DNA from: a virus | Reading direction: 5' to 3' (one strand) | IMG/VR virus record: IMGVR_UViG_3300044627_004293 | Coordinates: 1-26,796 of that record | Length of the DNA: 26,796 bases | In this document: positions 1,312 to 4,892 of the stretch, one piece after another | Layout: every line of letters starts with the position of its first letter | Position numbering within the stretch: position 1 is the stretch's first letter | Notes under the pieces: generated by a model | Seen by the model: only the letters and a program-made list of their open reading frames with translations | Database searches by the model: none | What the model was told of the DNA's origin: nothing | Program-made: the position numbers and the translations under genes

Positions 1312-2988
1312 ATGTCTATTGTAAGTCAAGGTAAATTTATAGGAAGATCTTCTTCTTTTAAGTATAGAAAGTCCGGTGGTATAGGTTCTGGTATAAATTT
1401 ATCAGCTCAGCGCAAAGATAGTTTAGAAAAAAGAGCTATTAGTGACAAGCAAGATAAAGAAACTGCAAGAACAAAGGAAGTATCTCGTAGAGAAAAAGAA
1501 AGAAAACAGAGGCGGATTCAAATGGTTAAACGGGTATCAGAAGAGACTAATACTGAAAAAAGACAAAAAGTCGTGGCAGTCAGTCGACCAGATACTGCAA
1601 ATACACCTTTGGATGCTCGCTCTAAACTATATAAACAGACTCAAATTAAAAATAAAATCATCGATGAAAACGAGGTAAAAACAATGACTTTTCAGAAGTA
1701 TCACGGTCTGCCAGACTCATTGGTCTCGGCTGTTACTGCAATTTTAGAAAAAGTAAAGAATCCTTTTGAGGATGATGATAAGAAAACAAAGTCAAAGAAA
1801 GATGATGATCAGGATGATACTGATGATATGGATATGAAGTCCAATAAGAACGATGATTCTGATGATAATGAAGACGATGATTCTGATCGAAAGGTTGGTA
1901 CGAATGGCAAAAAGACTAAGGTAGAACTTAATCCAAAGACACAGTCGGCCAATGAAGAGCTAAAAGGTAATCAGCATAAGCTTGATAAAAACAAAAATGG
2001 CCGTTTAGACAAGCACGACTTTAAGCTACTTCGTAAAGAAGAAGTCGAGCATATTGAAGAAGGTAATACTCATACCGTTTGGTTCCAGAAAGGAACTAAG
2101 GTAGGCGCTCGCTCAGCCCGTGGCATTGGTGTAATTGCCAAAAATGAAAAGCATGCTATTGAAGTTGCTAAGCAGAAGTTTCCTGATCACAAAAATGGCT
2201 GGTTTGTTGACAAAATCAAGTCGTATGCTAAAGAAGAAGTCGAGGAGATCGACGAACTCTCAAATAAGACTCTTGGAAATTACGTTAAGAAAGCTGGTCG
2301 TCAGCTAAGAAGCGGAACTGCTCCTAAGGGACGCGATGAAAGATCAGATCTTGCTAAGTTAAAGATTGCTAAGCGTAGTTCTAATAGTCGTGATCCATAT
2401 ATGGATGAGGAAGTTGAATTAGATGAAGCAATGAAGTGGGATAAGAAGAGTCACGCATCATTGCCAGCTATGGATCAGCCTAACATGAAGGCACATAAAG
2501 AAGCAGCCAATTGGCATAGAGAAAATTATGAAGATAGTTCAGGAGATGCAAAGCAGTATCACAAGAAAAGAATGCTGCATCACACTACTCAAGCTGACGC
2601 TATGAAGTCAATGTCTGAATCAAAGCAGTTCGACATTGGTCTCTCCGACGAGGAAACGCAGCGTATTCTGACTAAGCTAAAAGAAAGTGATGATAAAGCT
2701 TATAAGTATCGTGATACAGATCCAGCCGATAAGAACAATGATTATGATGCATCTAAAGATAAGAATCCAGAACATATTGTTATGCAATTACGCAAAGCTA
2801 AGTCTTTAGGCGCTGCTAATCGGCCTATTCATTTTCATGATGGTTCAAAGGCAAATGTATCTTCAGCCCATGTTCATAAGGCACTGGATATGCATAACTC
2901 TTTCAAGAAAGCTCCAGATAGAGACGACTTTACTCAGAAACTTCAAGCTTCTCACGCATCATTCAAGAAAGCTCTGGGAGAACAATGA
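1312..2988 (+). CDS. Modular acidic T4-like phage protein with EF-hand loop and prohead-protease-like sites
   Basis: A 558-residue, highly charged protein. Residues 1-120 are Lys/Arg-rich and probably helical. At about 124 a new module begins (MTFQKYHGLPDSLV), preceded in the DNA by GAGGT about nine bases before ATG 1684, so an internal start is possible. Residues ~150-195 are Asp/Lys low complexity. Residues 225-236 (DKNKNGRLDKHD) form an EF-hand-like calcium loop. The acidic motifs EEVEHIEEG (243-251), EEVEEIDEL (308-316) and EEVELDEA (366-373) each contain (I/L)-x-E, the T4 gp21 prohead protease consensus, and separate small domains. The motif followed by a TL-x-x-Y-x-x-KA helix is common in T4-like phage proteins. 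A head-internal or scaffold-associated protein is a fair inference; enzymatic function is not visible. Confidence 0.75.
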   Translation: MSIVSQGKFIGRSSSFKYRKSGGIGSGINLSAQRKDSLEKRAISDKQDKETARTKEVSRREKERKQRRIQMVKRVSEETNTEKRQKVVAVSRPDTANTPLDARSKLYKQTQIKNKIIDENEVKTMTFQKYHGLPDSLVSAVTAILEKVKNPFEDDDKKTKSKKDDDQDDTDDMDMKSNKNDDSDDNEDDDSDRKVGTNGKKTKVELNPKTQSANEELKGNQHKLDKNKNGRLDKHDFKLLRKEEVEHIEEGNTHTVWFQKGTKVGARSARGIGVIAKNEKHAIEVAKQKFPDHKNGWFVDKIKSYAKEEVEEIDELSNKTLGNYVKKAGRQLRSGTAPKGRDERSDLAKLKIAKRSSNSRDPYMDEEVELDEAMKWDKKSHASLPAMDQPNMKAHKEAANWHRENYEDSSGDAKQYHKKRMLHHTTQADAMKSMSESKQFDIGLSDEETQRILTKLKESDDKAYKYRDTDPADKNNDYDASKDKNPEHIVMQLRKAKSLGAANRPIHFHDGSKANVSSAHVHKALDMHNSFKKAPDRDDFTQKLQASHASFKKALGEQ

Positions 2989-4209: not shown

Positions 4210-4599
4210 ATGAATGAAAAACTTACTGATGATAACTTTTTAATATATGCAGCAAAATATTATGATACAGCTTTATGTTGCTCAACCGATGAATTTTTAC
4301 AAGATTTAAAAAGACTTAAATATATAAAAAAATTATTGACTAGATATAATGAAGGTGGAGAACTTAAAGAACAATTAATATTGAATCATATTATTGTACT
4401 TAATAATGTATTTGGCGCTGAGCATGCATGCAGAATATTATATTTGAAATTGAGCAAATATTTTGAACAAATTATACCATTTTTAGTATTGCTAAATATA
4501 TTACCAGATAAACTATACAATATAGGCAATGATGCCGTAATAAATCTTGATGTTATTATTATGGATTCTAAGATAGTAGATAAGCTTAGGAAGATCTAA
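4210..4599 (+). CDS. Conserved T4-like hypothetical protein (probably DUF7207)
   Basis: 129 residues, helical, starting MNEKLTDDNFLIYAAKYYD. The blocks FLQDLKRLKYIKKLLTRY, GELKEQLILNHIIVLNNVFG and IIPFLVLLNILPDKLYNIG match a protein conserved in nearly all marine T4-like phages, which I believe is DUF7207. Function unknown. It is followed by the 97- and 129-residue genes, an order usual in such phages. Its TAA overlaps the next ATG (TAATG), suggesting coupled translation. Confidence 0.7.
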   Translation: MNEKLTDDNFLIYAAKYYDTALCCSTDEFLQDLKRLKYIKKLLTRYNEGGELKEQLILNHIIVLNNVFGAEHACRILYLKLSKYFEQIIPFLVLLNILPDKLYNIGNDAVINLDVIIMDSKIVDKLRKI

Positions 4600-4892
4600 T
4601 GTCAAAAAATAAGAAACCAAGCAGAACAGCTCGCAGGGCTTTGGAATTATTTAAAGACAATCGCTTTGCTAAGCGAGTGATCAAGAGTAAGAAAGCATAT
4701 GATAGGAAGCGCGACAGGAAAATGGTTAATGAAACTGACTCTGTCGTTCCAGTAAATGCTATGGGCGCATCATCTTCTTCATCTGGTCCAATTCAAACAT
4801 ATGATCCATTGCTGCAAATAAAAAATCGTAAAATTAAGAAATTTTCTTCTATGTTCAAGCGTAAAATGATGGAACATAGCAATGGCAACTAA
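4599..4892 (+). CDS. Conserved basic hypothetical protein (97 aa)
   Basis: Strongly basic (SKNKKPSRTARRALELFKDN, KSKKAYDRKRDRK, KNRKIKKFSSMFKRKM). The central PVNAMGASSSSSGPIQTYDPLL is a segment I recall from T4-like phage proteins at this position. There is no catalytic motif. The charge suggests nucleic-acid contact, but this is inference. The gene overlaps the one before by one base and the one after by eleven, so the three are probably co-translated. Confidence 0.65.
   Translation: MSKNKKPSRTARRALELFKDNRFAKRVIKSKKAYDRKRDRKMVNETDSVVPVNAMGASSSSSGPIQTYDPLLQIKNRKIKKFSSMFKRKMMEHSNGN

Follow-up and report, generated by a model that had tools for sequence, protein, structure and literature searches.

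The window analysed here, the whole stretch of 26,796 nucleotides of record IMGVR_UViG_3300044627_004293, is a 26.8-kb IMG/VR fragment of an uncultured virus that encodes a Dps protein, a PHROG virion structural protein, a DUF7207 protein and a primase, together with ribonucleotide reductase genes assigned by reading the sequence. An open reading frame on its plus strand, at positions 1312-2988, encodes a modular protein of 558 residues (P0001) for which searches of the Pfam and PHROG families returned nothing above the cut-off. The gene is situated in the block ahead of primase and nrdA, not between portal and gp21, and the Dps/ferritin-like gene (867-1310; PF00210, E = 1.1e-20) lies directly upstream.

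P0001, whose features all lie on the plus strand, begins with a helical domain (residues 1-124; 1312-1683), which is also N-terminal in the relatives in L002, L171-L174 and L147 (34%) and ends with KIIDE plus five residues. An Asp/Lys-rich stretch at approximately residues 147-208 (1750-1935), probably disordered, is followed by an EF-hand module (residues 219-242, loop 225-236; 1966-2037). Linkers and modules then alternate: EEVEHIEE (2038-2061), with a predicted cut after E250, precedes a module common to L172 and L173 (residues 251-307, GNTHTVWFQKGTKVG...; 2062-2232); EEVEEIDE (2233-2256), with a predicted cut after E315, precedes a module of the [ILV]SKxTLxSYxxKA type (residues 316-365; 2257-2406); and EEVELDE (2407-2427), with a predicted cut after E372, precedes a module common to L003, L007 and L008 (residues 373-436, AMKWDKKSHASLPAMDQ...; 2428-2619). 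The C-terminal domain (residues 446-558; 2647-2985) remains constant while the centre varies.

An earlier, sequence-only reading had described three prohead-protease-like sites separating compact segments. The three motifs are present as claimed, namely EEVEHIEE|G at residues 243-250, EEVEEIDE|L at 308-315 and EEVELDE|A at 366-372, with P1 residues E250, E315 and E372 spaced by 65 and 57 residues. Three EEVE(x)[IL]xE motifs arose in 0/20000 shuffles of the protein; bare [IL]xE, found seven times against 3.8 in shuffles, is unremarkable alone. Cleavage by T4 gp21 follows L/I-x-E, according to PMC9026906, and P0001 carries L/I-x-E at its three predicted cut positions, as gp21 substrates do; the same is seen family-wide. 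Conservation of the motifs had been proposed as a test of that reading, and the sites do recur in relatives that keep the modules: those at E250 and E315 in L172 (EHIEE|G, EQIDE|I), and that at E372 in L003, L007 and L008 (EEVELDE|A). L002 and L171 are without the modules, one linker of the P0001 type being left in L171 and only KEEV in L002. The compactness of the segments gains no support from a poor AlphaFold2 model (mean pLDDT 46, 7 sequences used), in which values of roughly 60-75 are reached only at about residues 486-556, apart from a helix near residues 40-80.

The calcium-type loop upstream of the first linker had been regarded as an extra oddity. The loop itself, DKNKNGRLDKHD at D225-D236, is real: it fits DxNxNGxLDxxD, and a profile of 12 EF-hand modules searched against the PDB gave calbindin D9k first (E = 7e-5) and then mostly troponin C, P0001 alone matching Pfam EF-hand_6 at E = 0.085, under the cut-off. 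It is no oddity, being a module that is shared among shuffled proteins.

Searching viral contigs with P0001 yielded 44 loci, and later searches a further 80 and 13; all-against-all comparison of these left 142 non-redundant modular ORFs. Judged by sequence, P0001 belongs to a large group, as yet without a name, of proteins that T4-like aquatic phages build from shuffled modules and in which the EF-hand, [ILV]SKxTLxSYxxKA, GLWxNIHAKRKRI, GGLNxKGxxSYRRENPGS, AMKWDKKSHASLP and other modules recur in varying order. Only two of the modular proteins scanned had a Pfam match over the cut-off (DUF5824), and their PHROG matches are nearly all of unknown function. Near-identical phages have gained or lost whole modules at the linkers. 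A 616-bp cassette block of the window (2046-2661, plus strand) is represented by 25 bp in L002, which is 98.5-98.6% identical to the window in both flanks; in L172, linkers 1 and 2 and the module between them are as in P0001, and the third module differs; a single linker remains in L171, which lacks the central module; L174 carries other modules; and L141 equals L007 minus one module, lost between two KEEVE-coding repeats. From these comparisons it follows that P0001's family varies in its centre and is constant in its N- and C-terminal frame.

Such precise gain and loss at the linkers, with AAAGAAGAAGT duplicated at both ends of the module that L141 lost relative to L007, would also be expected if the linkers were only flexible joints and recombination seams for cassette swapping. 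This account is quite unlikely, as synonymous codons in the linkers vary nearly as they do elsewhere (GAA for Glu 0.87 versus 0.81, Ile and Asp alike) and the x-Glu phase is kept, though recombination would not need it. Since codon use is much as elsewhere, the feature that is kept is the protein sequence; a reading of the linkers as DNA sites was disfavoured on the same ground.

Across the 142 modular proteins there are 152 EE[VATI][ED] stretches, and in 118 of these [ILVMF]xE comes next, at offset 0 or 1, as against about 8 after shuffling; 83 of the 152 linkers fit if only Ile or Leu is admitted, as in the published T4 rule, and 21 have no [ILVMF]xE within 15 residues. Among the 122 sites that were aligned, P3 is occupied by Leu (44), Ile (40), Val (30), Met (5) or Phe (3), P2 is mostly Asp, and P1' is Ala in 35 and Gly in 19. 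Some of this counts against cutting: the Val at P3 in 30/122 sites is outside the published [IL], Thr or Gln occupies P3 in some cyanophage linkers (VTNE|G, VQME|G), and Leu, Lys or Ile is frequent at P1' too. Homology borders are enriched near [IL]xE, both for starts (197/1020 versus 112.5 random) and for ends (213/1051 versus 116.7 random), which have their peak exactly at P1, the HSPs being mutually dependent. The decoys [IL]xD and [IL]x[KR] were near expectation; because the [KR]xE decoy was enriched as well (z 6-7), the border test is unspecific alone. The SKxTLxSY modules stand directly after [ILV]xE in 22 of 23 cases by script, and the remaining one, Cr30 gp064 (MRSKILAE|ISKKTL), missed through the script's length rule, fits by eye.

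Three of the modules occur in other phages as free small proteins, which start at the position of the predicted cut. The GLWxNIHAKRKRI module has [ILVMF]xE within five residues upstream in 9/9 T4-like cases (for example, MIKFSEFIDE|GKRGLWDNIH), and in non-T4-type phages, where it forms a tiny protein or an N-terminus, it starts near Met in 5/5 (MAKRGLYANIH or similar), these five having been picked for variety from 71 records. For the GGLN module, P1 lies 13-14 residues before GGLN in seven of eight cases, and the free GGLN protein of HTVC034P starts MAKTPLWQRKAGKN; the EF-hand protein of HTVC023P starts MLKGNQKKLDKN, compared with KSFME|ALKGNQHKLDKN in the modular form. As the free proteins start where the linker is predicted to be cut, cutting would recreate them. 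These homologues bear on a further possibility, that the acidic-hydrophobic linker serves as a recurring motif for docking, for instance to the gp22 scaffold core, and stays uncut. Its conserved part does exceed what gp21 needs, with EE(V/A/T)E on top of I/L-D-E, and relatives adjoin the scaffold gene; docking is nonetheless unlikely, for it explains neither why free homologues begin where the cut is predicted nor the preference for Ala or Gly at P1' (54/122). The free GLYANIHAKRKRI protein of T7-like phages (L163-L165) has its gene, in several of these, close to those of the scaffold or capsid, a hint of a role in the head; the accessible text of the P-SCSP1u cryo-EM paper has no bearing on the free GLYANIH protein.

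Some relatives of P0001 are encoded next to the gp21 protease. In L007 and L053, the gene for a modular protein containing P0001's AMKW module precedes, in this order, an ORF of 80 aa, a PF03420 protease gene, a gp22-like ORF and the capsid protein gene. In Caulobacter phage Cr30, gp275 has the portal and a 55-aa ORF on one side and the PF03420 protease gp276 on the other. The L007 and Cr30 relatives thus occupy the portal-to-gp21 slot, as modular proteins just upstream of gp21-22-23. PF03420 was detected in 6/43 records, including all 4 contigs >100 kb and P-TIM68, and, in a separate count, in 3/12, including Cr30; most records in which it was not detected are short fragments, and none was found on the 26.8 kb of the window. 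A neighbouring ORF of 97 aa within the window (4599-4892, plus strand) copies, by alignment, the N-terminal segment of the major capsid protein around the presumed gp21 site, with 43% identity over 44 residues (E = 7e-8 in a pairwise comparison on a small scale and 2e-5 when the record was searched) and VNE|TDSVVPVNA... matching the presumed capsid cut SLNE|ISSLLPVNA.... Capsid N-terminal copies are also present in L152 at 28343-29236 (S-CREM2 gp160) and in L181 at 27806-28354 (S-SM1 197); short capsid-segment matches occur in 6/10 records searched, and that of the window ORF includes the presumed gp21 site.

Relatives have also been recovered from virions. The virion proteome of S-CREM2 comprises 52 proteins, including cytidylyltransferase gp154 and the hypothetical proteins gp136, gp137, gp155, gp156 and gp160, as given in Table 3 of PMC10665884; PMC3037559 likewise records cytidylyltransferase in S-SM1 virions. 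By their sequences, gp160 and gp137 are modular proteins of P0001's kind. gp160 carries EETEISE|G and two modules in common with P-TIM68 AIR93496, which in turn carries KEEVEKIDE|VSKGTLGNY, like P0001; the link between P0001 and gp160 is hence indirect, via P-TIM68, and this counts against the cutting reading. The gp160 gene lies in the same block, from cytidylyltransferase to primase/nrdA, as P0001's family. That block, before primase and nrdA, would also suit a non-virion protein of the infected cell, such as a scaffold for replication enzymes, as would the lack of a strict capsid-targeting N-terminus on P0001. This is very unlikely to be its role, however, given that the same S-CREM2 block (cytidylyltransferase to primase) provides four virion proteins (gp154, gp155, gp156 and gp160) and that the neighbour at 4599-4892 copies a capsid segment.

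Targeting to the capsid of T4 IPIII needs residues 4 and 7, and its processing residues 8 and 10 (PMC9026906). A loose targeting pattern, which matched 35/132 modular ORFs and 42/416 others, was dropped; because many of those others were neighbouring cytidylyltransferase and DUF6267 genes, a stricter T4-derived pattern, M..[FY]..[FY][ILFVM].E, was adopted. Within 149 of the 168.9 kb of T4 it selects only ipII, ipIII and 61.1, and in the collected loci it occurs in 29/741 ORFs, compared with 1.2 in column shuffles (maximum 5, 1000 shuffles). In S-CREM2, it selects the annotated starts of four proteins, gp6 (SAM hydrolase), gp14 (kinase), gp136 and gp154, and one further, internal site in nrdA. 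All four belong to the virion set, which covers 52 of 219 genes (chance ~0.003), with gp136 and gp154 known before the scan and only gp6, gp14 and the S-SM1 enzyme unseen. The last of these, the S-SM1 cytidylyltransferase, starts MKKFSAFLNE|A. Beside a relative of P0001, in L003, are MKTFTRFLLEEA (DUF6267) and MKKYSRFITEEG (cytidylyltransferase). Targeting N-termini of this kind would explain the packaging of enzymes in cyanophage virions. No window ORF, P0001 included, matches the strict pattern. A candidate internal start is predicted at 1672-1686 (plus strand), where GAGG (1672-1675) stands eight bases before the ATG codon of M125 (1684-1686); this possible start would open a leader MTFQKYHGLPDSLVSAVTAILE|K resembling the N-termini of proteins in L003, L133, L150 and L075.

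Several observations accompany the scan. T4-type targeting starts are found on virion enzymes in L153 (S-CREM2 gp6, gp12-gp15), L152 (gp136, gp154) and L181 (S-SM1 GC190), the targeting sequence of gp12 lying behind an N-terminal extension and that of gp13 being a near match. DUF6267-type and cytidylyltransferase-like neighbours of modular genes, with the same N-terminus, are encoded in L003 (3639-5487), L030, L038, L136, L137, L149 and L150, and DUF6267 has a KxDG-like stretch. T4 gene 61.1 (L156, 18966-19130; 54 aa, MKTFKEFIKEDM) fits the targeting pattern and, from its sequence, is possibly an unrecognised T4 internal protein.

The best reading among those tested, and a reasonably probable one, is that P0001 is a modular head-core or cargo precursor whose (I/L)xE linkers are cut by a protease of the gp21 type. 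The sequence-only reading had already suggested a precursor cut into peptides; that suggestion has gained much indirect support from the linkers, module boundaries, free homologues, gp21 slot and virion mass spectrometry of relatives, and is unproven because the protease gene is absent from the 26.8-kb contig and the strict T4 targeting N-terminus from P0001. We infer that P0001 would enter the T4-like prohead as a core or internal protein, where a gp21-family protease would cut it after the linker residues E250, E315 and E372, with further cuts probable at, for example, IIDE119, AILE146 and LKE458. The EF-hand piece, two or three cassettes and the C-terminal domain would be released, and these modules may either remain with the DNA or exit as core peptides. 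The linkers would double as exchange points, so that the cassette set is phage-specific between a constant N- and C-terminal frame. A broader proposal, advanced tentatively, is that T4-like aquatic phages join shuffled modules by protease-site linkers, target them to the prohead by T4-type leaders on the modular proteins or on partners, cut them with gp21 and inject them as phage-specific small effectors along with capsid-targeted (CTS-tagged) enzymes, which on the same tentative footing would be the cytidylyltransferase, SAM hydrolase, kinase and Cas9-like proteins.

If these readings are right, many of the proteins now labelled "hypothetical" in T4-like phages of the sea and of fresh water become readable, and head contents and released pieces could be predicted from sequence. 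The strict T4 targeting N-terminus would be a simple rule that accounts for unexplained cyanophage virion enzymes, a natural cargo-loading grammar testable against existing mass-spectrometry data. Searches of an open-access collection brought up no paper whose title or opening of the abstract describes such linkers or targeting sequences in cyanophages.

In T4, gp22 and gp67 are cut by gp21 into peptides. The Glu-ended L/I-x-E sites of the T4 core proteins gp67, gp68 and gp22 are also found in P0001, which has an Asp-rich stretch as gp67 does; P0001 is, however, several-fold longer than gp67 and gp68 and built of shuffled modules, and none of the searches made, including Pfam and PHROG, gave homology to gp67, gp68 or gp22. 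The T4 core slot between portal and gp21 is held by P0001's relatives, whereas P0001 itself lies before primase/nrdA. The T4 IPII/IPIII pattern MxxFxx[FY][IL]xE is present on neighbours and several modular relatives but not on P0001, and the T4 internal proteins, unlike modular P0001, consist of one piece and are trimmed of an N-terminal propeptide. With calbindin and troponin C, the P0001 module shares the canonical EF-hand loop pattern, although P0001 has a single short hand, a putative calcium binder. Modular like P0001 are S-CREM2 gp160 and gp137, P-TIM68 AIR93496, and syn9 gp114 / S-P4 gp060 (T4-GC119), which contain mostly other modules, are annotated only as hypothetical or structural (S-P4 gp060 as structural) and have no cleavage described in the accessible parts of the sources; gp160 and gp137 of S-CREM2 are found in virions (PMC10665884).
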